A stretch of DNA of 64,000 bases, taken from the NCBI RefSeq assembly GCF_000217935.1, contig NZ_AFHI01000008.1:62001-126000 (forward strand). Reading direction: 5' to 3'. The position numbers and the translations under genes were made by a program. Shown here piece after piece: positions 20,106-32,415 of the stretch. Position 1 is the first letter of the stretch; the number at the start of each line of letters is the position of its first letter. Under the pieces are notes generated by a model. That model saw only the letters and a program-made list of their open reading frames with translations, had not been told where the DNA came from and searched no databases. Origin of the DNA: Rheinheimera sp. A13L. Its GTDB lineage: Bacteria; Pseudomonadota; Gammaproteobacteria; Enterobacterales; Alteromonadaceae.

Positions 20106-22880
20106 ATGACGAAAATTGGTTTAAGAGATTGGGTCTTATTGACCACCCTGGTACCGACCTTGTTGGTCAGTTTATTCCTTGGGGGTTATTTTAGCTATGC
20201 CCGCCATCATGATTTGGCCCAGTATCTGGAAGATCAGGCTGAAAACATTGCTGTGCCTTTAGCTATTGCCAGTGAACATGCCTTATTACACAACAGCAGA
20301 CAAGACGTCAAACGTTTGCTGGATGTCAGCCACAGAAAAAACTCAGCGCTGGTAAAAAGTATCGCCATTTTTAACGCCGACCACGAGCTCTTTGTCACCA
20401 CCAATTATCATAAAGATTTTGCCATGCTGAAATATGCGCCAGACAGCGCTATTCCACAGCAAAGTACCATCACCGATCTTGGCGACTGGCTGGTGATCCG
20501 CACTCCTATTTTGCCGGAACAGGCGGATTTCAGCACAGATCCGGCCGACCAGCCTTTGGGTTATATCTCAGTGCAGGTAGCCAAAGACAAAGTCATGCTG
20601 GCGCAACAAACCTCTTTACTGAGCAGCCTGCTGATTATTTTGGCAGGGCTTGGCGCTTGTGTGTATTTCAGCTTGCGCCTGATCAAAAGAGTCAGCCAGC
20701 CTTTGCAGCAAATGGGTGATGTGATTGATCAACTACGCGAAGGTCAGTATCAAAGCCAATTGCAGCAACCTTTTTTAGGTGAGCTGGAACAATTACGTTC
20801 TGGTATTAATGCACTGGCGACAGCACTGAAAACCCATGACGAAGAAATGCAGCAAAGCATTGAACAGGCCACCAGCGACTTGCAACAAAGTATGGAACAG
20901 CTGGAGATGCAGAATATCGAGCTGGATCTGTCCCGTAAAAAAGCCATGGAAGATAACCGCAGCAAATCTGACTTCCTCGCCAAAATGAGCCACGAATTAC
21001 GCACACCGCTGAATGCCGTTATTGGTTTTGCCCGCCAGTTGCTGAAAACCAATCTGACCCATAACCAGCAGGATTATCTGGCCACTATTCAAAAATCAGC
21101 CAACAGTTTACTCAGCCTGGTCAATGACGTGTTGGATTACGCCAAACTGGAAGAAGGCCGGATGCCAATTAACCCAGAGCCTTTTTCATTACGCGATTTA
21201 TTAAACGATTCGGTGGAATTGCTGGCGTCCAATGCCTTTGATAAACAGCTGGAATTAGTTTTGCTGATTGAAAACAGCTGTCCGGACGATTTAATAGCAG
21301 ACCCTATGCGGATTAACCAAATTCTGACCAATATTGCCGGCAATGCGATTAAATTTACCGAACAAGGCAGTGTAGTGATCCGTGTTAGTTGTCGCCCTAT
21401 GCCGGATGAACAATGGCAACTGCGTTTTTCAGTGCAGGATACCGGCATTGGTATTCATGAAGATCAGCAAAAAAGTTTATTTGGCGGTTTTGCTCAGGCC
21501 GACAACAGCATAGGCCGCCGTTATGGGGGCACAGGCTTAGGTTTAGTGATTTCACAGCGTTTAGTTTCGGCTATGGGCGGCAAAATTGGCTTTGACAGTA
21601 AAGCAGGTGAAGGTTCAACCTTCTGGTTTACCCTGATGTGCAAACGCCACCATTTATCCATAGCTGAGCCTTTGCCTCTGGCCGAGCTGAAACAAAAAAC
21701 TGTGTTGTATTTTGAACCTCAACAGTATTCCCGCGAGGCCATGCTGGCCCAGCTGGATCATTGGGGGCTCAATATTATCAGTTGCAGCAATATGAGCCAG
21801 CTTAGCCAAACCCTGGCTTTACAGCCACAAATTGATATGGCCTTGATTGGCCGCTCTATTTCACTGAATCAGGTGAATCAGGTGATTGAATTGCTGCAGC
21901 AGTTACAGCTGCACAGCGAACAGCTGTATTTACTGGTCAACACTTTATCGCCGAATTTACGTGAAGTATTACAGGCCTCAGGCGCCAAAGCTGTGTTATC
22001 CAAACCCGCGCATTACCGCAAACTGGCGATGACGCTGGCTCAGCCTTATTTAGATTTCCCTGAACAAAACCCATTGCAGGACAAACCCAAAGCCCGCTTA
22101 CGGGTGTTGTCAGTGGACGATAACGAAGCCAACTTAAAACTGATTAATACCTTGTTGTCTGAAATGGTCGAGCAGGTCGATTCAGCCCGTAATGGTGCTG
22201 AAGCATGGCAAAAAGCCAATCAGCAACATTACGATCTGATTTTTATGGATATTAATATGCCGGTGATGGACGGCATTCAGGCTTGTCAGCGTATTCAGCA
22301 AAGTTCGTTAAACGAAGCTACCCCTATTATTGCTGTAACAGCTCATGCCTTAGACGGCGAAAGAGACCGGCTGTTAGCTTTAGGTTTTTGTGAGTTTTTA
22401 ACCAAACCTCTGGATGAAAAACTACTGCATTACACTTTGCGTGAATGCTGCCCGGATTTTCAGCAGGCTTTAGCTGCTTCTGTTGGCGAAAACCAACTGC
22501 CCCAAAGCAAACAACTGGACTGGACCTTGGCCTTGCAAAGAGCAGGCGGCAAACTGGATTTAGCCAAAGAGATGTTATGGATGCTGGTGCAGTCTTTACC
22601 TGAAAGCCTGGCCTTAATTCAGCAGGCCATGCAACAACAGGATGCAGAACAGCTGCTGCAACATATCCATAAATTACATGGTGCCAGCTGCTACACCGGC
22701 TTGCCCGTACTCAAACAACTGACAGAACTGATTGAAACTGAACTGAAAAAAGGCAAACAACCGCTGCAACTGGAGCCTGAGTTATTTGAATTACAAGACA
22801 GGGTTCAGTCCTTGCTGCAGGACGCTAAAAGCTGGCCTGTGTTGGTGACAGAGCAAGCAGAGACAAAAGTGCCGGGCTAA
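20106..22880 (+). CDS. barA: Hybrid sensor histidine kinase BarA
   Basis: Tripartite sensor kinase of 924 residues of the BarA/GacS class, which signals to the UvrY/GacA response regulator. In order: TM1 (~8-30), periplasmic sensor, TM2 (~171-191), HAMP and coiled coil (to ~285), HisKA with His296 in LAKMSHELRTPLN, HATPase (NQILTNIAGNAIKFT, DTGIGI, GGTGLGL), a degenerate receiver (~530-645), a receiver with Asp715 in FMDINMPVMDG, and an Hpt domain with His858 in HKLHGAS. It is divergent from rlmD. The likely regulon (CsrB-type sRNAs) is family knowledge. Confidence 0.93.
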   Translation: MTKIGLRDWVLLTTLVPTLLVSLFLGGYFSYARHHDLAQYLEDQAENIAVPLAIASEHALLHNSRQDVKRLLDVSHRKNSALVKSIAIFNADHELFVTTNYHKDFAMLKYAPDSAIPQQSTITDLGDWLVIRTPILPEQADFSTDPADQPLGYISVQVAKDKVMLAQQTSLLSSLLIILAGLGACVYFSLRLIKRVSQPLQQMGDVIDQLREGQYQSQLQQPFLGELEQLRSGINALATALKTHDEEMQQSIEQATSDLQQSMEQLEMQNIELDLSRKKAMEDNRSKSDFLAKMSHELRTPLNAVIGFARQLLKTNLTHNQQDYLATIQKSANSLLSLVNDVLDYAKLEEGRMPINPEPFSLRDLLNDSVELLASNAFDKQLELVLLIENSCPDDLIADPMRINQILTNIAGNAIKFTEQGSVVIRVSCRPMPDEQWQLRFSVQDTGIGIHEDQQKSLFGGFAQADNSIGRRYGGTGLGLVISQRLVSAMGGKIGFDSKAGEGSTFWFTLMCKRHHLSIAEPLPLAELKQKTVLYFEPQQYSREAMLAQLDHWGLNIISCSNMSQLSQTLALQPQIDMALIGRSISLNQVNQVIELLQQLQLHSEQLYLLVNTLSPNLREVLQASGAKAVLSKPAHYRKLAMTLAQPYLDFPEQNPLQDKPKARLRVLSVDDNEANLKLINTLLSEMVEQVDSARNGAEAWQKANQQHYDLIFMDINMPVMDGIQACQRIQQSSLNEATPIIAVTAHALDGERDRLLALGFCEFLTKPLDEKLLHYTLRECCPDFQQALAASVGENQLPQSKQLDWTLALQRAGGKLDLAKEMLWMLVQSLPESLALIQQAMQQQDAEQLLQHIHKLHGASCYTGLPVLKQLTELIETELKKGKQPLQLEPELFELQDRVQSLLQDAKSWPVLVTEQAETKVPG

Positions 22881-22892
22881 TCCTGCTGCAGT

Positions 22893-24119
22893 TTAATCTC
22901 TGCGGTAACTGCGGCGTTTTTCCAGAATAGCCTCTATTTGTTCCACTGTGGTATCTGGTTTACAAGGGATGCCGGTATGTAACCAGATAGCGTCTTTACG
23001 CGATTCAGGCGGAGGTACTTTCCAGCAACCTGGATTGGTATCAATTAATGCACTGCCGTCGGCAAAAGTTTTTACTTTTCTACCCACCTCTGGTTTTTGT
23101 TCGCTTTTTGTTGCAGTAATTTCCAGCGCCAGCTGTTTTTGTTTTTCTTTCCAGGTTGCAGAACCTGAAGCGTCTCCTTGTCTGGCCGCTCGTAGCGCGC
23201 TGTTTGCCATGCTTTTGCGTTGATCCAGGCTGGCAGCAACTGCATTTGACGCCGCTTTCTGTTCCACTGTATTGATATCAGCAGCAGTGCTTGCTACCCC
23301 GGCTGACCTGGGTTCAGGGATCACAGCTGCTGGTTTAGGCGCAGGCAACGGCTTAGCCGCTACCACTTCAACGGGTAGGGGTGCAGGCAAAGGCTTAGCC
23401 GCTACTACTTCAACTGGTTTTGGCACAGGTGCAGGCAAAGCCTTGGCTGCTACTACTTCAACTGGTTTGGGCACAGGTGCAGGCAAAGGCTTAGCTGCTA
23501 CTACTTCAGCTGGTTTGGGCACAGGCGCAGGCAAAGGCTTAGCTGCAACTACTTCAACGGGTTTGGGCACAGGTGCAGGCTTAGCTGCTACTACTTCAGC
23601 TGGTAGGGGTGCGGGCAAAGGCTTAGCCGCTATTACTTCAGCTGGTTTTGGCATGGGCTTGGGCGCTGGTACAGGTTTTGCTGCTACAGGCATAGGCTTG
23701 ACCATAGCAGGCTTACGCACAGGCACAAAAGGTTTACGTGGCGGCGGCTGAACAACTGCTGTTTTGGCTTTGGCTGGGGCAGGTTTTGTTTTGGCTTGAG
23801 GTTTAGCCTTTACAGCTGGCTTTTTCTCCGGTGGTTTTTTCGCTGGCGGCTTCTTAACTACAGCCTTTTTAACGGCTGCTTTTGCTGGTGTTTTTTGCAC
23901 GGGCTTCACAGCGGGTTTTGCTGCAGTTACTTTGGCAGGAACAGCTACAGGCGTTGCTACTACAGGAGCAGGTTTGGCTTTCACTGGCTGATAAGCGTAA
24001 GCCAGAATAGGAGGTTCTGCTGTTACTTTTGCGGCATCATCCGGCGCAAAATGATGATAGGTCAGCAAACCTAACAGCACTATGTGCAAACACAATGACC
24101 ACAAAAATGCTTTCAACAC
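22893..24119 (-). CDS. TonB/TolA-like membrane protein with Pro/Ala repeat
   Basis: A 408-residue protein with an N-terminal membrane anchor (LWSLCLHIVLLGLLTY, residues ~6-21) of the TonB/TolA kind. A long Pro/Ala/Lys/Val linker follows, with tandem units near 16 residues (AAKPLPAPVPKPVEVV) at ~148-264. The C-terminal ~120 residues contain two cysteines (NPGCWKVPP, GIPCKPD). The repeats would span the periplasm as an extended rod, leaving a small globular tip. It is not close enough to known TonB or TolA to name. It is convergent with barA, 12 bp apart. Confidence 0.7.
   Translation of the reverse strand: MLKAFLWSLCLHIVLLGLLTYHHFAPDDAAKVTAEPPILAYAYQPVKAKPAPVVATPVAVPAKVTAAKPAVKPVQKTPAKAAVKKAVVKKPPAKKPPEKKPAVKAKPQAKTKPAPAKAKTAVVQPPPRKPFVPVRKPAMVKPMPVAAKPVPAPKPMPKPAEVIAAKPLPAPLPAEVVAAKPAPVPKPVEVVAAKPLPAPVPKPAEVVAAKPLPAPVPKPVEVVAAKALPAPVPKPVEVVAAKPLPAPLPVEVVAAKPLPAPKPAAVIPEPRSAGVASTAADINTVEQKAASNAVAASLDQRKSMANSALRAARQGDASGSATWKEKQKQLALEITATKSEQKPEVGRKVKTFADGSALIDTNPGCWKVPPPESRKDAIWLHTGIPCKPDTTVEQIEAILEKRRSYRRD
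23328..23681. repeat. Tandem coding repeat, ~48-bp units
   Basis: About eight imperfect units encode AAKPLPAPVPKPVEVV variants. Some units are 39-42 bp, indicating past slippage. It is the likeliest length-variable site in the window. Confidence 0.75.
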
Positions 24120-24204
24120 ATCTCCCTATTCATTCAGCAGGATTTTTGCCGATCCAAAGTAGCCAGCCCCCAAACTGCACAAAAGTCACCATAAACAGAC
24201 AAAC

Positions 24205-25932
24205 TTAGCCCTGGAAAAAATGCACCCTGTTGCGACCCAACTGCTTAGCCTGATACATGGCGGTGTCTGCATCCTCAATCAGTTTGGTTAAATGGTAACC
24301 GGAGATCTCTGCCGAAGTAACACCAAAACTGGCGCTTAACTTAAACTCATAACCCGAAGCTGCAGTATCGATACTGTAAATAGCATCCCGACAAATATCG
24401 GCCAGTAAGTGGGCTTTATCGCTTTGGCAACCAGGCAACAAAATGGAAAACTCTTCACCACCAATACGGCCAAATACGTCGTTATTCCGCATAAAATTGC
24501 GACAGGTATCCACAGTCTGGCGCAAAGCCCAGTCGCCTGCCGCATGACCATACTGGTCGTTAATTTGCTTAAAATGGTCTAAATCAAACACTATAAGGGC
24601 GGCAGGTAATTGGCCCTTTTCGCATAAAGTCAGCGCTTCTTTGGCCGAAGCTGAAAAGTGATATCTGTTGCTGATAGCGGTTAAATCGTCGTACTCAGCC
24701 AAAGCTTTAAAACGCTGACGGGCAATAAAACTGCGATAAGCCAAAAAGGCCAGCCCCAGCACCAGCGCCACTAAAGCTGCGATCATCAGCTTATTAAAAG
24801 CAGCCTGATGCTTAAGCGCTTCCTGCTCCAGTTGCAACAGTCGATTGTCTTTATCCAGCAAAGATATTTTTTGATTTTGCGCCAGAATTTCCGAGTGAGC
24901 CGTATGGTAAGCCATCTGTTGCGCCGATTTATCATCCATATAAGCGGTAAAAGCGGCCATATAGTGCTCGTGGTACTCCAGAGCTTGTTGGTAGTTTTTT
25001 TCGGTTTTGGCTATTTGATGCAATACCGCAAATGTTTCCACTGCGACCAAGCTAACTCTGTCTTGTTTTGCAGCACCTATAACTTTCAAAGCATTTTCTT
25101 TTGCTAAAGAAAAGTCACCAAGACCGTAGTAGCTTTGTGCAAGAATACTATTAAATTTCAGTATCAATGAGTTATAGCGAGTAGATTCAACTTGATTATT
25201 ATGAGACTGCAGCAAACTGACCGCACCTTGGTAATCCTTCTCGTCCATCATATTCTGAGCGATAAGCGACACTATTATATTAGCCCACAAAGGCTCATTA
25301 TGTTGTGTGCAGTAGCCCAGTCCTTCAACAGACTTCAATTTAAAATCATCTGTCCGACCAGATAAATAAAGCGCTTCTGCTCTGAGTTGATGTGCAGCAC
25401 ACACAGCATTTGAACTTGGACTTTCATCAATTAACTGTTCAATAAAACTTAATGAAAAATCATATTTACCAATCAGATTATACATCAGCGCAATGACTCG
25501 CAGCCCTTGCTCACGCGCTTCTGGCTGAGACACCTTGTTTAACTGAGTGATCAGTTGTTCAAGATAAACAAAGGCATCAAGATATCGGCGAGCTACCACC
25601 AGGCTGTTGATCGCCAAAGCTTTTGCTCTGAATGAAATCACAAGATCGGAGTTTTCAATTAATGGGGTTAAAATCGAAAGTGTTGATTGGGTATTGCCTC
25701 TATATGCTTCCCTATAGGCTTTCATAAGGGTTAAGTAGTCTTGCTCAAAGTCTGACAACTTATTTTCTTCGGCTATCAGCTCATCTAGTTTTATCGAAAA
25801 GCTATTGAAGTCACTGCTCTTCAATTTATCTAAATGCAAGAGGCTATCGACCCAAACTGTAGCAAAGGCATTTACGGGAGACAGCATAAAAATGAGCGGA
25901 ATCAAAATGACCCGCCCAACTTTAATCAACAC
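24205..25932 (-). CDS. Membrane diguanylate cyclase with TPR sensor
   Basis: Makes cyclic di-GMP. A signal peptide (ILIPLIFMLSPVNAFA) precedes a periplasmic TPR-rich region, a membrane segment (~LMIAALVALVLGLAFLAY) and a C-terminal GGDEF domain with an active GGEEF site. An RNND inhibitory I-site lies five residues before GGEEF. I prefer the GTG at 25932, which has AGGG eight bases upstream. An in-frame TTG at 25953 sits 3 bp after the borosin precursor B stop. A link to the RiPP cluster is possible but unproven. Confidence 0.85.
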   Translation of the reverse strand: MLIKVGRVILIPLIFMLSPVNAFATVWVDSLLHLDKLKSSDFNSFSIKLDELIAEENKLSDFEQDYLTLMKAYREAYRGNTQSTLSILTPLIENSDLVISFRAKALAINSLVVARRYLDAFVYLEQLITQLNKVSQPEAREQGLRVIALMYNLIGKYDFSLSFIEQLIDESPSSNAVCAAHQLRAEALYLSGRTDDFKLKSVEGLGYCTQHNEPLWANIIVSLIAQNMMDEKDYQGAVSLLQSHNNQVESTRYNSLILKFNSILAQSYYGLGDFSLAKENALKVIGAAKQDRVSLVAVETFAVLHQIAKTEKNYQQALEYHEHYMAAFTAYMDDKSAQQMAYHTAHSEILAQNQKISLLDKDNRLLQLEQEALKHQAAFNKLMIAALVALVLGLAFLAYRSFIARQRFKALAEYDDLTAISNRYHFSASAKEALTLCEKGQLPAALIVFDLDHFKQINDQYGHAAGDWALRQTVDTCRNFMRNNDVFGRIGGEEFSILLPGCQSDKAHLLADICRDAIYSIDTAASGYEFKLSASFGVTSAEISGYHLTKLIEDADTAMYQAKQLGRNRVHFFQG

Positions 25933-25956
25933 TGTATTTGCCCTTGCAAACAAAGT

Positions 25957-26232
25957 TTAGCCCACATTCAAAAAGCTGATTTTTTCTTGCTCTGGCTCTT
26001 GCTCAGGTTCAGCAGGTTCATCCTGCTCAGGCTGATCAGCCGGATGAATTCCACACACCACATTAGTTCTGGCTCCTAACAGCGTTTCAATAGCATGCTG
26101 ATCGCCTGCACTAACAGCTGCAATTAATGCAGGATCTGTATCCGCCATTAGCTTTGCTAATTGCTCTGCATCGGCATAACGCAACTCTGAACTCTGACCC
26201 ATTTTTTCTAATAACTGAATAATAACAGACAT
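25957..26232 (-). CDS. Borosin-type RiPP precursor B (91 aa)
   Basis: Small acidic protein homologous to precursor A. Residues 1-54 form a helical leader (MSVIIQLLEKMGQSSELRYA, then DPALIAAVSAGDQ) with the look of a borosin-binding domain. An identical LGARTNVVCG segment (52-61) follows, then a Pro/Glu-rich linker and a C-terminal ISFLNVG. I chose the ATG at 26232 because GGGGAG lies five bases upstream and the N-terminus then aligns with precursor A. It lies 142 bp after the acetyltransferase stop. That gap may carry its own promoter (weak TTGTAC/TACAGT). The modified core is either the NVVCG region or the C-terminal tail. Confidence 0.75.
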   Translation of the reverse strand: MSVIIQLLEKMGQSSELRYADAEQLAKLMADTDPALIAAVSAGDQHAIETLLGARTNVVCGIHPADQPEQDEPAEPEQEPEQEKISFLNVG

Positions 26233-26374
26233 AGGTACTCCCCTGAATTTAAGCAAAACATCTGCGACTTACCGCAGACAGGCTCAACAACTGAAACCAC
26301 TGTAAAACGATAAAATTAAAAGTACAAGAGCGGAAGATTATCCTGGTTCATTTATCGCTACATTCAAAGCTAAT

Positions 26375-26893
26375 TTAGTCTGGCTTAAACCAAAATATAC
26401 CGGATTGAATGGGATCAGCCTGATAACCTGCTGTGATATTCGACTGAACTGCGGCTTTGTTATTTGGGTTGGTTTGAGTCCAGACTTGCCCCCCGCTAAA
26501 GAGCTGTTGCACTTTTTGACTTAATGCCAGCTTGGCTTCTGTACCGTAACCCTGACCTTGCCAGGCGGGCAATAACATCAACCCCACTTCAACAGTGGCC
26601 AACTGGGCACTCCATTGGTTAATAGCACACAACCCTATGGGCTGGTTATCACGGCATATCGCCAAAAATAAGCGCTTAAAAGGTACTTTGGCATTGAGGC
26701 GCAACGCAATCTGAAAGCTGTTTTTGGCTTTTTCCAACTGCAGCGGCGGGCCAATAAAGGCCATCACAGCTGTGCTGGTGTATAAATCCAGATAGAGTTG
26801 CTGGTCCTGCGTAGTTAAAGGCCTGATCAGTAAACGGCTGGTCTGGATCATAAAGTGATCTGCAACAGCAACTTTGGTCCAGTCCGCTGTCAT
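26375..26893 (-). CDS. GNAT acetyltransferase, RimJ/RimL-like, in borosin cluster
   Basis: A 172-residue N-acetyltransferase of the RimJ/RimL branch. TSRLLIRPLTTQDQQLYLDL opens the fold and the acetyl-CoA loop reads LPAWQGQGYGTEAKLAL, followed by a conserved TNPNNKAAVQSNITAGY. Its ATG overlaps the methyltransferase stop by 4 bp (ATGA), a sign of translational coupling. This makes it a candidate tailoring enzyme for the peptide, possibly acting on an amino terminus or Lys side chain. It could also be an unrelated housekeeping acetyltransferase. Confidence 0.85.
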   Translation of the reverse strand: MTADWTKVAVADHFMIQTSRLLIRPLTTQDQQLYLDLYTSTAVMAFIGPPLQLEKAKNSFQIALRLNAKVPFKRLFLAICRDNQPIGLCAINQWSAQLATVEVGLMLLPAWQGQGYGTEAKLALSQKVQQLFSGGQVWTQTNPNNKAAVQSNITAGYQADPIQSGIFWFKPD

Positions 26894-27684
26894 AGCTGGC
26901 CTTCTTGCGCCACCACAGCTTTTAGTTTATCCAAAACCAGCTGATTGGCTTTAGCTACAGTGGCCGGCGGTATAACTAAGGTAGTTTTTAAATCCATTTG
27001 TGCTTTAGGTAAGTCAGATAAAGCCAACCGCTCAATCCGGGGTTGCTGAATAGGTAAAGTCACGGCTTCGTATAAAATCACCTGATGATCCAGCGGATAC
27101 CATTGGCTTAACAACTCTACCAAGACGTCGCGATAGGCGCTGCCTGTAGTGAATTTAGCCAGCGACTTATCACCAGCTACTCCTATTTGCCATAAAATCA
27201 GATAAGCGGCAGTGTCTATAGTACGCTGATAAAACATCAGGTTGCTGGCTTCATAATGCTGGCAACCATAAGTGCCGGGGTCTAACCCCAAATCGGCATA
27301 TAAACAGTCTTCAGCTGAAATACCTGGTTCCATATGAGCCATATAACCTTCAGCTACCGCTTCTTTAATAGCCTGATGCGGCACCCAGGCAAAGACGCCG
27401 GGATGGCCATAAAAAGCACCACAAACTTTTTTGCCTGCATGCACTTCAGCCAGCATAGCAGCCACCATTTGTTTATAGGTGATCATACGGGATTGGCCTT
27501 CAGAATAATAAGGCTGCAAGCTACGCACATCGGCATTCATGCCCTGGATCCACAGCTCAGTAGTGCCATCTGCCATTAATACAAAAACCACATCGGCTTG
27601 TTCTATATAACTGCGGGATAAAGGGCTGATATGAGAACCCAAAGTCATACCAGTGCCTACACACACCAAACTACCTTTTTGCAT
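26890..27684 (-). CDS. Borosin alpha-N-methyltransferase (split, SonM/OphMA type)
   Basis: A 264-residue SAM-dependent enzyme of the tetrapyrrole methylase fold that, in borosins, iteratively N-methylates backbone amides of a precursor peptide. Family motifs are present: GSLVCVGTGMTLGSHISPLS, FYGHPGVFAWVPHQAI, EPGISAEDCLYADLGLDPG, YGCQHYEAS and LILWQIGV. Arg66 and Tyr70 in QSRMITYKQM and Tyr92 in FYGHPG match the catalytic trio of OphMA. Unlike fungal OphMA, no precursor is fused. Two stand-alone precursors flank it. ATG follows AGGAG by six bases. Confidence 0.9.
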   Translation of the reverse strand: MQKGSLVCVGTGMTLGSHISPLSRSYIEQADVVFVLMADGTTELWIQGMNADVRSLQPYYSEGQSRMITYKQMVAAMLAEVHAGKKVCGAFYGHPGVFAWVPHQAIKEAVAEGYMAHMEPGISAEDCLYADLGLDPGTYGCQHYEASNLMFYQRTIDTAAYLILWQIGVAGDKSLAKFTTGSAYRDVLVELLSQWYPLDHQVILYEAVTLPIQQPRIERLALSDLPKAQMDLKTTLVIPPATVAKANQLVLDKLKAVVAQEGQL

Positions 27685-27708
27685 TAATTTCTCCTGCTGC
27701 CACAGTTG

Positions 27709-27734
27709 CGAAAAAGCTGCCCGCAGGCAGCTTT
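27709..27734 (-). terminator. Intrinsic terminator between precursor A and methyltransferase
   Basis: On the minus strand AAAGCTGCC, a TGCG loop, and GGCAGCTTT followed by further T (27711-27715) form a 9-bp stem. It begins 10 nt after the precursor A stop and ends 25 nt before the methyltransferase start. Partial read-through would give many precursor transcripts per enzyme transcript, a common RiPP arrangement. Confidence 0.8.
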
Positions 27735-27743
27735 GATACCAGA

Positions 27744-27980
27744 TTAGCCAACTTTGGCCAATGATGTAATTTCTTCCTGCTCGTCAGTTTCTTCTGCTGC
27801 ATATACACCGCAGACTACGTTAGTGCGGGCGCCTAAAACTGCAGCCAGTTGCTCCTGAGAGCCAGCCAGAATAGCAGCGGCTAAAGCCGGGTCTAACTCT
27901 GCTGTCACTGTGGTTTTATCGGCATAACGTAAATTGGCGTCCTGGCCCATTTTTTCCAATAAGCTGATCACTGTAGACAT
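27744..27980 (-). CDS. Borosin-type RiPP precursor A (78 aa)
   Basis: Small protein at the head of the cluster. It has a helical leader (MSTVISLLEKMGQDANLRYA, DPALAAAILAGSQEQLAAV), then LGARTNVVCGVY (49-60), an acidic linker (AAEETDEQEE, 61-70) and the tail ITSLAKVG. Segments identical to precursor B are LLEKMGQ, LRYAD, DPAL and LGARTNVVCG. The ATG at 27980 has AGGA seven bases upstream; a longer frame to 28007 lacks a match in precursor B. No catalytic residues are present, consistent with a substrate. The link to the methyltransferase is by position and leader resemblance to split-borosin precursors. Confidence 0.78.
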   Translation of the reverse strand: MSTVISLLEKMGQDANLRYADKTTVTAELDPALAAAILAGSQEQLAAVLGARTNVVCGVYAAEETDEQEEITSLAKVG

Positions 27981-28110
27981 TTGAATTTCCTTAATAAATA
28001 AGCTCATTACGGGGCATAAATAATATAGCCCGTTCAGGCAACTCTAATGTGCCCGTTTCGATACTAACGCTGAGTCTGTACTTTTGACCAGTTTTATTAT
28101 GTCTGGTTGG

Positions 28111-28133
28111 GCCGCGGCTTTATCCCCGCCCGC
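28111..28133. repeat. REP-like unit
   Basis: GCCGCGGCTTTATCCCCGCCCGC resembles the units at 7171-7270. It lies in the 158-bp gap between acpS and precursor A, at the end of the acpS operon. Confidence 0.4.
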
Positions 28134-28138
28134 AAAAA

Positions 28139-28516
28139 TCAGGATTCGAGAATAACGGTAGCACAGGCATAAGCCTGTTCGTCGCTGATGGAGAGCCAGA
28201 CCGAACGCACTTGCATTGAGTCAGCCAGCTCTTTGGCCGGGCCTGTCAATTCAAGTTGAGGGCGACCTGAAGGGTCGTTGCTGACAATAAAATGCTGGAA
28301 GGAGATACCACGGCCTATGCCAGTACCAAGGGCTTTAGCCGCTGCTTCTTTGGCGGCAAAACGTTTGGCGAAATAACGGGCTGGCTGGCCATGAACAGCT
28401 AAAATTTGCTGCTCCGATTCAGTCAATACCCTTTGTACTAAACGGGGTGAACGCGCCAGGCTTTGCTCTATGCGCGCAATTTCGATGATGTCGGTGCCTA
28501 AACCAACAATAGCCAT
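28139..28516 (-). CDS. acpS: Holo-[acyl-carrier-protein] synthase
   Basis: Transfers 4'-phosphopantetheine from CoA to apo-ACP. The 125-residue protein has the magnesium-binding Asp in GLGTDIIEIARIE and the catalytic Glu in KRFAAKEAAAKALGTG. It shares one base with the pdxJ stop (TAATG) and ends the lepA-lepB-rnc-era-recO-pdxJ-acpS operon. The RiPP cluster lies immediately downstream but starts after a 158-bp gap, so it is probably separate. Confidence 0.96.
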   Translation of the reverse strand: MAIVGLGTDIIEIARIEQSLARSPRLVQRVLTESEQQILAVHGQPARYFAKRFAAKEAAAKALGTGIGRGISFQHFIVSNDPSGRPQLELTGPAKELADSMQVRSVWLSISDEQAYACATVILES

Positions 28517-29247
28517 TAACGGCGTGCCTCCACCATCAGGCGTTTCATTTCAGCCACAGCAGGGCCTAAGCCAGAGAAAATGGCGCGGGCCACAATAGCA
28601 TGACCAATATTCAGCTCGTACATTTGAGGAATAGCGGCTATAGGCTGCACATTATGGTAATGCAGGCCATGACCAGCATTCACTGTTAAACCCAAAGAGG
28701 CGGCATAAGCAGCGGCTTCAGTAATGCGATCCAGCTCTACTTTTTGCTTTTTCGGATCCGTCGCTTCTGCATACTGGCCTGTATGAATTTCAATATAAGG
28801 AGCACCAGCTTTAGCTGCTGCTGCTATTTGTTTTTCATCGGCGTCGATAAACAACGAGACTAAAATATTGTCCTGCTGCAGGCGTAACACAGCATCCTGA
28901 ATTTTATCGAACTGGCCTGCCACTTCTAAGCCACCTTCTGTGGTCAGTTCCTGGCGTTTTTCCGGCACTAAACAGCAGAATTCAGGTTTTAACTGAGCGG
29001 CAATACCTAACATTTCTTCAGTCACTGCCATTTCAAAATTTAAGCGGGTGGCAATAGTTTCGCGCAATACAAATAAATCGCGGTCCTGAATATGGCGGCG
29101 GTCTTCGCGTAAATGCACAGTAATACCATCAGCGCCAAATTGCTCAGCCAATAAAGCCGCATGCACAGGTTCAGGGTAATAAGTGCCACGGGCCTGACGT
29201 AAAGTGGCGACGTGATCGATATTGATACCTAAATAAATGGCGCTCAT
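28516..29247 (-). CDS. pdxJ: Pyridoxine 5'-phosphate synthase
   Basis: Condenses 1-deoxyxylulose-5-phosphate with aminoacetone phosphate to give pyridoxine phosphate. The 243-residue TIM barrel starts [20 protein letters not shown], with [14 protein letters not shown] and the [15 protein letters not shown] phosphate-binding turn. The ATG at 29247 (AGGAA upstream) is used; the frame remains open to 29445 inside recO but that extension is not conserved. It begins 2 bp after the recO stop. Confidence 0.96.
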
Positions 29248-29249
29248 AA

Positions 29250-29930
29250 CTAGTTCCTGATCGGTTGAAATAATGCTCTGCTGGTTAAAGGTTTGCTGCC
29301 AAGCAAAGGGGCTAATAATAAGCGGCTTAACTGTTTGGCGGTTTTTAATACGTCGTGCTGTTGCCAGTGCTGTTGGCCTATGGCTTTGAGCACCTCGCCT
29401 TTCCAACCTTTGCCAGCAATTTGCCAGCCTTGCTCGGGCCACCACTGATACAAAGCGCCGTCCTGTAAAGCTTCACCTTGTGAATCGTAATCCCAGTCCA
29501 CCGGCTGCCCTAATTCGGTCAGTAATGAAAACTCAAACTGACGTAAACAAGGCTCCAGATCGTTAGTTAACAGTTGCTGCAAGGTCTGCTGGTAAAACTC
29601 AAATAAAGCGTCGGAACCAACGTTTTCTGGCCACAAGCGGCAAATCAGCTCGTTTAAGTACATGGCACCAAACAGCTTTTCACCTTGCAGCAAAAAGGCT
29701 GGGCCTGCTTCTTCAGCTTTACTGACAGTTTTTAATTCAGAACGACCCAGCAGTTCCAGCTGCAATAACTGGAAAGGCTGCAATGACAAACGTTGTTGTT
29801 TTTTACTGCTGGATTTGCGGATCACAGCGCTGACCCGACCCAGTTCAGGTACCAGCAGCTGCAATAACAACTGCTGTTCCTTAAAAGCGCGGCTGTGCAG
29901 AATAAAAGCTGGCCAGCTGCGATTGTCCAT
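29250..29930 (-). CDS. recO: DNA repair protein RecO
   Basis: Mediator of RecF-pathway recombinational repair and RecA loading. The 226-residue protein has an N-terminal OB fold ([35 protein letters not shown]) and a helical domain ([14 protein letters not shown]). The zinc cysteines found in some RecO proteins are absent, as in E. coli. It lies 1 bp after era and 2 bp before pdxJ. Confidence 0.92.
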
Positions 29931-29931
29931 T

Positions 29932-30828
29932 TTAGTCTTCGCCGTAACCTAAGCTGCGTAAAGCGCGCTCGTCATCAGCCCAACCTGATTTCACTTTCAC
30001 CCATACCTGCAAAAATACCGGCTGTTCAAACAGGGTTTCCATATCTTTACGGGCTTCCGTAGCTATGGTTTTTATCCGTTCGCCTTTTTTACCTATCACC
30101 ATCTGCTTTTGTGTGTCACGTTCAACCAGCACTAAAGCGGCGATATGGTAATGTTTTTCTTCCCATTTAAAGCGTTCAATTTCAACTGTCACTGCATAAG
30201 GCAATTCATCGCCAAGGAAACGCATCAGCTTTTCGCGCACTATTTCCGAGGCCATAAAGCGGCTGCTGCGGTCAGTCACATATTCTTCAGGGAAGAAAAA
30301 TTCACAAGGGGGTAATTGTTTTTGCACCAGTTCGCGTAATGTCTGCACATTGGTGCCCTTCTCCGCGGATAAAGGGATGATTTGTTGAAACTCAAGCTGA
30401 CTGCCAAGCCACTGTAAATGGGGCAGCAAGTCTTCTTTGTCTTTGTATAAATCGACTTTATTCACCACCAACAGCACTGGTTTTTTTGCCGCGATCAAAC
30501 GGTTTAATACCATCTGATCGTCGTCCGTCCAGCGTGTGCCTTCAACGACAAAAATAATCAGCTCTACATCCAGTATGGTGCTGGCGGCAGCTTTATTCAT
30601 CAGACGGTTAATGGCGCGCTTTTCTTCGATATGTAAACCTGGGGTGTCGACATACACAGTCTGGTAATTATCCTGTGTGTCTATACCAACAATACGGTGG
30701 CGGGTGGTCTGTGGTTTACGCGATGTAATACTGACCTTCTGACCCACCAACTGGTTTAATAGAGTGGATTTACCCACGTTCGGACGGCCAACTATGGCAA
30801 CCAATCCTGCAAAAGTCTCAGAGGTCAT
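29932..30828 (-). CDS. era: GTPase Era
   Basis: Essential GTPase for 16S rRNA maturation and 30S assembly. It has 298 residues with G1 [14 protein letters not shown]3 DTPGLH, G4 NKVD and a C-terminal KH domain ([19 protein letters not shown]). It overlaps the rnc 3' end by 11 bp, as is common for the rnc-era pair. Confidence 0.97.
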
Positions 30829-31492
30829 TTTTTACTTGTTCCAACAAAATCCGCGCTGAATCCTGTTCAGCTTTACGTCTGGAGTTGCCAGACGCGGTAA
30901 CAGGCGCTCTGCCCTGCACAGTACAACGCACGGTAAATATTTGATCGTGATCGTCGCCTTGCGTATCTATCACTTCATACAAAGGTAAAGGCAAACGACG
31001 CCCTTGCAGATATTCCTGCAACTGGGTTTTACTGTCCTTATGCACACCGGGCTGAATCACAGTTAAACGGCTGCCATACCAGCTTAATATCCGCTCTTTA
31101 CAGGCTTCAATGCCAGCATCTAAAAAGATAGCACCTAAAATGGCTTCCACTGCGTCGGCCTGAATGGATTCACGGCGTAAGCCACCGCTTTTCATTTCAC
31201 CAGGGCCTAAGCGCAGGAATTCGGCCAGCTCCAGTTCTTTGGCAATTTCAGCCAGAGTCACGCCTTTCACTAAAGACGAACGCATGCGGGTTAAGTCGCC
31301 TTCGCGGGCTTTCGGAAAATGGATATACAAGGCTTCGGCAATCACCATACTTAATATGGCGTCGCCTAAAAATTCCAGCCGCTCGTTGTGCTCACCTTTG
31401 CAGCTGCGGTGAGTCAGGGCTTGTTCGAGTAACGCGACCTGCTGAAACTGGTAACCCAGTTTTTTCATCAGGCCGCTAACAGGTTTTTGCAT
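30818..31492 (-). CDS. rnc: Ribonuclease III
   Basis: Double-strand-specific endoribonuclease for rRNA and mRNA processing. The 224-residue protein has the signature [20 protein letters not shown], the second acidic site [12 protein letters not shown], and a C-terminal dsRNA-binding domain ([20 protein letters not shown]). It overlaps lepB by one base. Confidence 0.97.
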
Positions 31493-32415
31493 TAATTAAT
31501 TTTGCCTAAACGTTCAAAACGCACGCCAACAGGCACCCATGAAGGCAACCAGTTGTCCGGGTCTTCACTAAATTCAAAACTCATCCAGATAAATACAGCT
31601 TTACCCACCAGATTTTCTTCAGGCACAAAACCCCAGGCACGGCTGTCACGGCTGTTATCGCGGTTATCGCCCATCGCAAAATAGTGGCCTTCAGGCACAA
31701 TAAACTCTTCGATGGCAGTCCCTGGCTGTTTGTAGTACTGCATTAAATCTTCGGCTTTAAACGGATGCTGCAGTATGTGGTGTGTATGCTCGCCAAATTG
31801 CTCAGAGTAGCGTTTGGTTGGCAGTTCGCCATCCATAAACTCGCCTTCGGCCTGCAAGGTTAAAGGCACTGCTTCTAAACCAGGGCAGGTACTTTTGTCA
31901 GCTGCGGTACAAGCAGGCTGAATAAACAGCTGCTTGTTTTTGTAGATAATGCGATCACCAGGTAAACCTACAGTACGCTTGATAAAATCAATAGTAGGTT
32001 GTTCCGGGTATTTAAATACAATCACATCACCCCGTTCTGGCCGGCCTGTGGTGATCAGCGGCTTACGCCAGACTGGATCCTTCACGTCGTAGGAGTACTT
32101 TTCCACCAGAATAAAGTCGCCGACCAATAAGGTAGGCATCATAGAACCTGATGGGATCTGGAAGGGCTCGTATAAAAACGAACGGATAATGGTAATGGCT
32201 AAAATCAGCGGGAAAATTTCTTTGGCAGTTTCTGCCAGATAAGAAGGTTTTTCCAGCTCTTCAATAGCGCTTAATGGCAGGCCACCCGCTGCAGCCGCCT
32301 GAGCGGTCGCAACTTTAACTTTACGTTTTGGAGCAAATACCAGTATATCAATCAGCCAGATCAAACCACTGACTAAGGTCAATACTACGAGGAAAATTGC
32401 AAAATAACCTGCCAT
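31492..32415 (-). CDS. lepB: Signal peptidase I
   Basis: Inner-membrane leader peptidase that cleaves Sec and Tat signal peptides. The 307-residue protein has two N-terminal membrane segments, the catalytic Ser91 in [14 protein letters not shown], the general-base Lys146 in [12 protein letters not shown], and the box E sequence [16 protein letters not shown]. It lies 14 bp downstream of lepA. Confidence 0.97.

Follow-up and report, generated by a model that had tools for sequence, protein, structure and literature searches.

What would a bacterium do with a peptide whose backbone is N-methylated, if the gene of its precursor lies directly ahead of a gene encoding a membrane sensor? This question is raised by a locus of Rheinheimera sp. 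A13L, contained in a 64,000-nucleotide stretch of contig NZ_AFHI01000008.1 (hereafter the window; coordinates are positions in it, and gene order is given for the minus strand). The locus encodes, in this order, the precursor A1, a borosin-type methyltransferase, a GNAT acetyltransferase, the precursor A2 and a diguanylate cyclase with a TPR sensor and a GGDEF output domain. A sequence-only reading of the same DNA had proposed a split borosin cluster comprising the first four genes, and all four open reading frames lie where it had placed them. Its description as a distinct natural-product locus is incomplete, however, given that it omitted the most constant partner of these genes, the sensor diguanylate cyclase. 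This constancy points to signalling, and the TPR-GGDEF gene beyond A2 changes the meaning of the locus. We lean towards the view that the N-methylated peptide is a signal, for which the adjoining TPR sensor is the cognate receptor and cyclic di-GMP (c-di-GMP) the relay. This view builds on gene identity, linkage, reciprocal co-occurrence, predicted topology and co-diversification measured against controls, all of which were obtained by computation.

The methyltransferase (26890-27684, minus strand, 264 amino acids) was called a split borosin enzyme by the sequence-only reading, an assignment on which several lines of evidence agree. All 25 distinct sequences listed at E<=0.01 in a PDB sequence search are named borosin methyltransferases, with SonM of Shewanella oneidensis at 6e-85 and fungal fused borosin enzymes at 8e-50 to 1e-44. 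The methyltransferase shares with SonM 54% identity across 254 amino acids and all four catalytic residues: R66, Y70 and Y92, which had already been singled out as conserved, equal SonM R67, Y71 and Y93, and Y60 equals SonM Y58. Mutation of Y58, R67, Y71 or Y93 is reported to cut the catalytic efficiency of SonM (PMC8429565). Pfam returns the superfamily name alone, and NCBIfam matches fall far under their cut-offs. The candidate alternative, a cobalamin or siroheme methylase, which the sequence-only reading had named as a refuting outcome, was rejected: the genome's other PF00590 proteins, two of which were detected, match the methyltransferase at E 0.07 and 0.49, as compared to 2e-100 for SonM (BLAST), and in the tree they branch apart from the borosin group, on long branches, so that the enzyme does not cluster with them by either approach. 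In an even draw across the class, the methyltransferase was detected (E<=1e-15) in 5/274 genomes, including that of the window. The expectation of a Rheinheimera-like genome was likewise borne out, the nearest named isolate match being Rheinheimera sp. 1928-s at 97%. The gene of the acetyltransferase (26375-26893, minus strand, 172 amino acids; Pfam Acetyltransf_3, 1.7e-17) overlaps that of the methyltransferase by four bases. A GNAT is encoded in 65 of the 76 untruncated related loci introduced below, and the two proteins are fused in a single open reading frame in three (L045:4905-6362, L053:4995-6353 and L060:4923-6338), which supports the proposed coupling.

Both precursors are small proteins preceded by a Shine-Dalgarno-like stretch, as judged by eye. 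A2 (25957-26232, minus strand, 91 amino acids, ATG at 26232) comprises a binding domain, a predicted core and an acidic tail; A1 (27744-27980, minus strand, 78 amino acids, ATG at 27980) is an accessory paralog encoded upstream of the methyltransferase. The two are identical at 37 of 77 aligned positions (48%, E 3e-25), which argues that these short reading frames did not arise by chance. Searched singly against the PDB, A1 and A2 gave chance-like matches only. A precursor profile built from 60 sequences (the two of the window and 58 of 92 listed relatives) matched SonA in 7 of 9 PDB matches (E 7.7e-6 to 2.4e-5; the next at 0.95), with the alignment confined to the borosin-binding domain. In A2, this leader spans about residues 1-53, and the AlphaFold model of the precursor (predicted local distance difference test score, pLDDT, 73) shows four helices across residues 3-52 followed by an extended remainder; Foldseek returned weak OphA and SonA matches, none of them significant (best E 2.9). 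Past the leader follows a conserved stretch of the form hydrophobic-V-C-x-hydrophobic-x-P-A-E/D-E and then the acidic tail, with the core Cys present in 88/104 precursor rows and in 55/60 profile sequences. From the translation, we predict the core of A2 as NVVCGIHPAD (26035-26064, minus strand; residues 57-66 around the conserved Cys60) and, aided by the alignment with A2 and relatives, that of A1 as NVVCGVYAAE (27792-27821, minus strand). SonA is methylated at L63 and I65, just past its binding domain (PMC8429565). By position, the predicted core would correspond to that of SonA, and N-methylation is expected on the hydrophobic stretch. Taken together, the locus encodes a split borosin related to the type IV pair SonM-SonA, with type IV itself a candidate assignment among types IV to X; its enzyme and precursor are a new member of the known split borosins.

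How constant is the sensor? We collected 80 loci, the best of 102 relatives, four of which are truncated where their contigs end (L033, L037, L059 and L079). In all 76 untruncated loci a sensor cyclase gene directly follows the precursor gene, yielding 82 precursor-sensor pairs. The gap behind the precursor gene, taken up to the first in-frame start codon, has a median of 9 bp and is 40 bp or less in 80 of the 82 pairs; in the window, the TTG start of the cyclase lies 3 bp beyond the stop codon of A2. Six loci carry tandem precursor-sensor pairs with one methyltransferase, and at least two precursor matches, some of them fragments, were found in 19 loci. Host genera include Rheinheimera, Arsukibacterium, Alkalimonas, Rhodanobacter, Lysobacter, Dyella and Shewanella. 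Among loci L001-L081, acpS adjoins the module in the clade of the window only (L001-L008, L034 and the window itself), so the module recurs apart from acpS. Regional synteny was therefore rejected as the cause of the presence of the cyclase, given that the module recurs without acpS in Shewanella, Lysobacter, Rhodanobacter, Dyella and further hosts. The two precursors, which had been presented as a flanking pair, are both gene-like yet unequal: precursors of the A2 kind are accompanied by a receptor in 76/76 loci, whereas A1 occurs in four of the ten closest loci (L002, L006, L007 and the window), with no receptor gene adjoining A1 of the window. A1 might act as a second signal or as a decoy, or it might be a spare copy.

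The linkage extends to more distant relatives. A second set of 68 loci comprised six with SonM orthologs (L117-L122), eleven other chosen loci (L123-L131, L135 and L136) and the remaining matches of at most 56% identity among the matches listed (L137-L187). A TPR sensor adjoins in 67 of these 68 loci, no farther than 1050 bp away from the methyltransferase; 53 sensors are of the GGDEF type (counting the decayed one of L187) and 14 are hybrid histidine kinases, and in all seven kinase-type proteins scanned Pfam detected TPR, HisKA, HATPase and receiver domains. Six Shewanella genomes each encode two borosin methyltransferases: besides one of the window type there is a SonM ortholog (67-78% identical to SonM), and at the latter a SonA-like precursor gene is followed by a TPR-GGDEF gene in 6/6 genomes, S. 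oneidensis lying outside this sample. Reciprocally, we matched the sensor domain against 79 host-family genomes. It was detected in 21 of them, as compared to 30 for the methyltransferase; 20 genomes contained both, one the sensor only, ten the methyltransferase only and 48 neither (Fisher p 2e-10, uncorrected for shared ancestry). Counted by hand from the coordinates, 26 of the 29 sensor-domain matches have a borosin methyltransferase no more than about 3 kb away, and of the ten methyltransferase-only genomes all seven inspected carry a kinase-type sensor (L124, L126-L130 and L179).

Several loci depart from the arrangement in the window. In L124, L126-L130, L177 and L179-L185, the TPR-hybrid kinase takes the place of the TPR-cyclase, in some cases with a separate GGDEF gene adjoining. 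The order is precursor, sensor, methyltransferase in L172, L173, L175, L176, L178 and L186, and the methyltransferase is divergent to precursor and sensor in L131, L137 and L143. In the decayed locus L187, methyltransferase and sensor genes are both broken, as if lost jointly. The precursors of L049, L054, L060 and L069 (67-88 amino acids in total) have a shortened borosin-binding leader with core and acidic tail retained. Three Rhodanobacter loci (L032:6265-6625, L042:5838-9909 and L040:5944-8938) contain up to five precursor matches, some of them apparent fragments, beside one or two sensors, and in Rheinheimera nanhaiensis a second, partial methyltransferase with precursor and GNAT lies upstream of the full borosin locus (L038:2220-3798).

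Most telling is the pattern of sequence variation. We compared 44 loci, namely that of the window and 43 of the untruncated ones, which were chosen from Shewanella and from Rheinheimera with its kin, using the first precursor-sensor pair where two were present. Among the 82 close pairs, in which the methyltransferases are at least 88% identical, median identities were 94% for the methyltransferase and 94% for GGDEF, and 54% for GNAT, 66% for the precursor and 55% for TPR; the identity of GGDEF exceeded that of TPR by at least 20 points in 65 pairs. Loci L009 and L010 illustrate how local this variation can be: in their first pair, the precursor is 46%, TPR 33% and GGDEF 96% identical, and in their second pair the values are 82%, 83% and 95%. 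At the DNA level, identity between the two is about 86-93% before the variable segment, drops to 43-49% across precursor and TPR, and is back at 86-90% in GGDEF. The same signature is seen in the second set, for instance in L140/L144 (methyltransferase 89%, precursor 55%, TPR 35%, output 96%), in L173/L176 (89%, 71%, 49% and 93%, respectively) and in the kinase-type pair L181/L183 (methyltransferase 86%, TPR 60%, output 96%).

Sensor domains might evolve rapidly in general. As controls, we used two other predicted periplasmic-sensor cyclases from the genome of the window and ten relatives; for the second control in G470, where a stop codon falls within the match, the best open frame alone was used. 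The difference between sensor and GGDEF identities in the controls had medians of 3.2 and 2.7 points and maxima of 8.5 and 10.6, and reached 20 points in 0/45 and 0/45 pairs, as opposed to a median of 42.9 and 44/55 pairs for the borosin-linked cyclase. Eight of the ten loci in this comparison are apparently shared with the first set, so the two comparisons overlap. For the clade of the window, general fast evolution of sensor domains was thus rejected as the cause of TPR variability. With methyltransferase and GGDEF distances removed, the partial rank correlation between precursor and TPR was 0.215 across 49 dereplicated loci, a value reached in 0 of 500 permutations. Variation is shared among the peptide, the GNAT and the TPR part of the receptor, with its output part fixed, a pattern resembling that of agr and comQXP, and it is for this reason that we think of the borosin as a signal.

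A plausible course of events can be outlined, in which methylation sites, acetylation, cleavage, export, binding and the sign of the c-di-GMP response are all inferred. Borosin methyltransferases bind the leader of their precursor and N-methylate the backbone of its core. Here, the enzyme would bind the helical leader and methylate the backbone around the NVVCG-I-x-P core, the GNAT would probably acetylate the product, and a protease would trim the peptide. The methylated peptide, which would be protease-resistant and membrane-permeable, might then reach the periplasm of its maker and of neighbouring cells, where it would bind the TPR domain of the sensor encoded just after the precursor; binding would alter diguanylate cyclase activity and hence c-di-GMP. 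Joint diversification of peptide, acetyltransferase and TPR domain would give rise to lineage-specific peptide-receptor pairs.

Some relatives carry a candidate for the trimming step in the locus itself. Pepsin-like aspartic proteases (PF00026) were found in 8 of the 79 host-family genomes, all eight of which also encode a borosin methyltransferase, and in 0/14 control genomes. In seven of the eight, the protease gene lies at most 4 kb from the methyltransferase gene (L135:6258-7697, and likewise in G061, G013, G003, G037, G014 and G009; one of these was Pfam-checked). A PF00026 search of the genome of the window gave no match. Shewasin, a pepsin-like protease, is said to cleave a borosin precursor.

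Various observations weigh against a peptide signal. Hydropathy of A1 and A2 revealed no N-terminal segment resembling a signal peptide, and no exporter was noticed among the open reading frames at 22000-32000, of which five were Pfam-scanned and which were not searched systematically. The linkage has exceptions: L125 is the one locus of the second set with no TPR sensor, three TPR-cyclases have no borosin gene detected nearby (L132:5675-7462, L133:5228-6997 and L134:5470-7278), and four distant methyltransferases from other families (L188-L191, 27-40% identity) have no TPR sensor, so the linkage is a property of this split-borosin branch and not, on this evidence, of all split borosins. Within the second set, the profile picked up a precursor in 44/53 cyclase-type loci but in only 1/14 kinase-type loci. 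As to the variable cassette, the 82 close pairs are mutually non-independent, and in the second set the output exceeded TPR by at least 20 points in 16 of 36 pairs, so the signature recurs only partly. SonM-ortholog pairs mostly lack it, with L119 versus L117 and L118 the exception; TPR and output identities are 45% and 49% in L117/L120, 43% and 44% in L118/L121, 90% and 93% in L117/L118, and 78% and 84% in L120/L121. Co-variation is imperfect in L065/L067 (precursor 52%, TPR 83%) and in L070/L072 (GNAT 92%, precursor 52%, TPR 68%). Finally, much of the precursor variation sits in leader and tail rather than in the core, which is fairly constant in the clade of the window (NVVCG/A-I/V/L-H/Y-P-A).

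Could the locus instead specify an ordinary split-borosin natural product, such as an antibiotic or a metal binder, with the cyclase a co-regulated or regulatory neighbour that senses another cue? Split borosins are treated as natural-product pathways, a 2023 title by Crone et al. reportedly announces a final product, and the acetyltransferase and the pepsin-like protease of the relatives are usual tailoring genes. As of 2021, no type IV pathway had been tied to a final product (PMC8429565). A neighbour that senses another cue would hardly be expected to adjoin the precursor in every untruncated locus and to be duplicated with it in tandem pairs, nor would its TPR part be expected to co-vary with precursor and GNAT far beyond what is seen in the control sensors. 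Moreover, the output is swapped for a kinase in other loci with a related TPR part retained. We consider this explanation unlikely.

A second alternative holds that the peptide never leaves the cell, and that the methylated precursor or peptide regulates the cyclase from within, for example by reporting S-adenosylmethionine or methylation status. The lack of an N-terminal hydrophobic segment in A1 and A2 would fit this proposal, as would the fact that no exporter was noticed; a Shewanella pepsin homolog, too, is reported to build up in the cytoplasm (PMC4814920). The architecture of the sensor argues otherwise. The cyclase (24205-25953, minus strand, 582 amino acids) contains a signal or anchor segment at about residues 7-33, the hypervariable TPR sensor at about residues 36-378 (24820-25848, minus strand), a transmembrane segment at 388-406 and the GGDEF domain, as deduced from Pfam (GGDEF 7.5e-41; TPR weakly, E 0.17 and 0.68), hydropathy and an AlphaFold model (pLDDT 89). 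The model displays helices at 29-317, a long helix at 321-420 and then GGDEF, its N-terminal part forming a helical, TPR-like solenoid, and Pfam detected TPR repeats in several related sensors. All 50 matches listed by Foldseek contain GGDEF and do not inform on the TPR groove. The active-site motif is intact (GGEEF) and is accompanied by an RNND (RxxD) I-site; GGEEF, D457, N465 and D466 are invariant in 49 sequences, and R489 and D492 nearly so. The cyclase matches 53 other places in the genome, none of them ahead of its residue 352. From the hydrophobic segments at 7-33 and 388-406, the TPR part is predicted to be periplasmic. The middle segment, between TPR and output domain, is present in 176/176 sensors and the N-terminal one in 153/176.

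A pair of cysteines in the TPR domain, Cys185 and Cys215, bears on the same issue. Both are present in 160/160 GGDEF-type sensors and in 2/2 sensors lacking a recognised output domain, both are absent from 14/14 kinase-type sensors, and a single Cys was never seen. Such all-or-none occurrence is as expected of a disulphide, and the two probably form a structural one. A dependence of the pair on the Cys of the precursor was rejected, given that the pair is kept in six SonM-ortholog loci whose precursors lack a core Cys. The strictness of the pair suggests a periplasmic disulphide, which, like the hydrophobic segments, speaks against sensing from within, and internal regulation would need no lineage-specific variation. 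A peptide confined to the cell therefore strikes us as very unlikely. Equally improbable is an arms race, in which TPR domain and peptide would diversify under attack by phages, bacteriocins or competitors rather than for signalling specificity: mosaic replacement with sharp borders is also typical of phage and toxin targets, but the presumably cytoplasmic GNAT is as variable as the sensor (median identity 54% vs 55%), the TPR domain is predicted to be periplasmic instead of surface-exposed, and neither GNAT nor TPR is an obvious target of attack.

Two further features of the region are worth recording. A terminator-like hairpin between the GNAT and A2 genes (26259-26280, minus strand) possibly separates expression of A2 and the cyclase, although eight terminator-like sites were found in the region as compared to 5.0 expected (standard deviation 2.5), so this signal is weak; scans for inverted repeats and promoters returned nothing useful. 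Right after the cyclase gene (22893-24119, minus strand) lies a reading frame for a Lys/Pro/Ala-rich protein of 408 amino acids with repeated KPLPAP-type units and an apparent N-terminal membrane segment, perhaps a spacer or TonB-like protein.

Returning to the peptide as a signal, linkage and co-diversification now provide a proposal, open to direct testing, for the function of type IV split borosins: they would supply a peptide signal that has its own receptor, with c-di-GMP or a kinase as output. If correct, it would assign a biological function to this bacterial split-borosin branch and, by gene linkage, to the SonM/SonA type as well. It would also explain why a peptide should be N-methylated (stability and membrane passage), assign a ligand to a family of sensor cyclases that are so far orphans, and make numerous natural pairs of peptide and receptor available for studies of specificity. 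Whether these loci amount to a new class of Gram-negative cell-cell signalling, with N-methylated borosin pheromones, periplasmic TPR receptors, c-di-GMP or phosphorelay output and lineage-specific pheromone types, is a proposition that we hold to be evenly balanced.

Among known systems, SonM-SonA of S. oneidensis is the closest relative of the enzyme and precursor: both loci encode a discrete methyltransferase, 54% identical and with the same catalytic residues, as well as a precursor on a gene of its own, in which a homologous borosin-binding leader precedes a short hydrophobic stretch (PMC8429565). In contrast to SonA, the core in the window centres on a Cys and a Pro-Ala-acidic motif and precedes an acidic tail, and the locus adds a coupled GNAT and a second precursor. 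The main text of the SonM-SonA report mentions neither GGDEF nor diguanylate (PMC8429565), and the literature searched, which left out the main bacterial borosin papers, held no description of a borosin coupled to a TPR sensor cyclase. Beside an enzyme and precursor of known type, this coupling would seem to be the new element.

The proposed mode of recognition is reminiscent of the RRNPP family (Rap, Rgg, NprR, PlcR and PrgX), in which the receptor gene lies beside the peptide gene; here as there, a TPR domain would bind a short processed peptide. RRNPP receptors are described as acting inside Gram-positive cells on re-imported peptide (PMC7564271). The TPR domain of the window, however, is predicted to be periplasmic and to be joined through a transmembrane segment to GGDEF, which would set it apart from these cytoplasmic receptors.

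The overall design resembles that of agr and comQXP. In these Gram-positive systems, variability falls on the enzyme, on the peptide and on the half of the receptor that senses it, and the output half is conserved. The locus of the window similarly co-encodes a modifying enzyme, a peptide and a membrane sensor, and peptide and sensing domain are hypervariable next to a conserved output domain, in the clade of the window and its relatives and in part in the second set. Differences are also apparent: no exporter was noticed here (albeit without a systematic search), and the methyltransferase is conserved, leaving GNAT as the variable enzyme. Unlike agr and comQXP, the module resides in Gram-negative hosts and would combine backbone N-methylation of the peptide with a TPR sensor and a cyclase or hybrid-kinase output.

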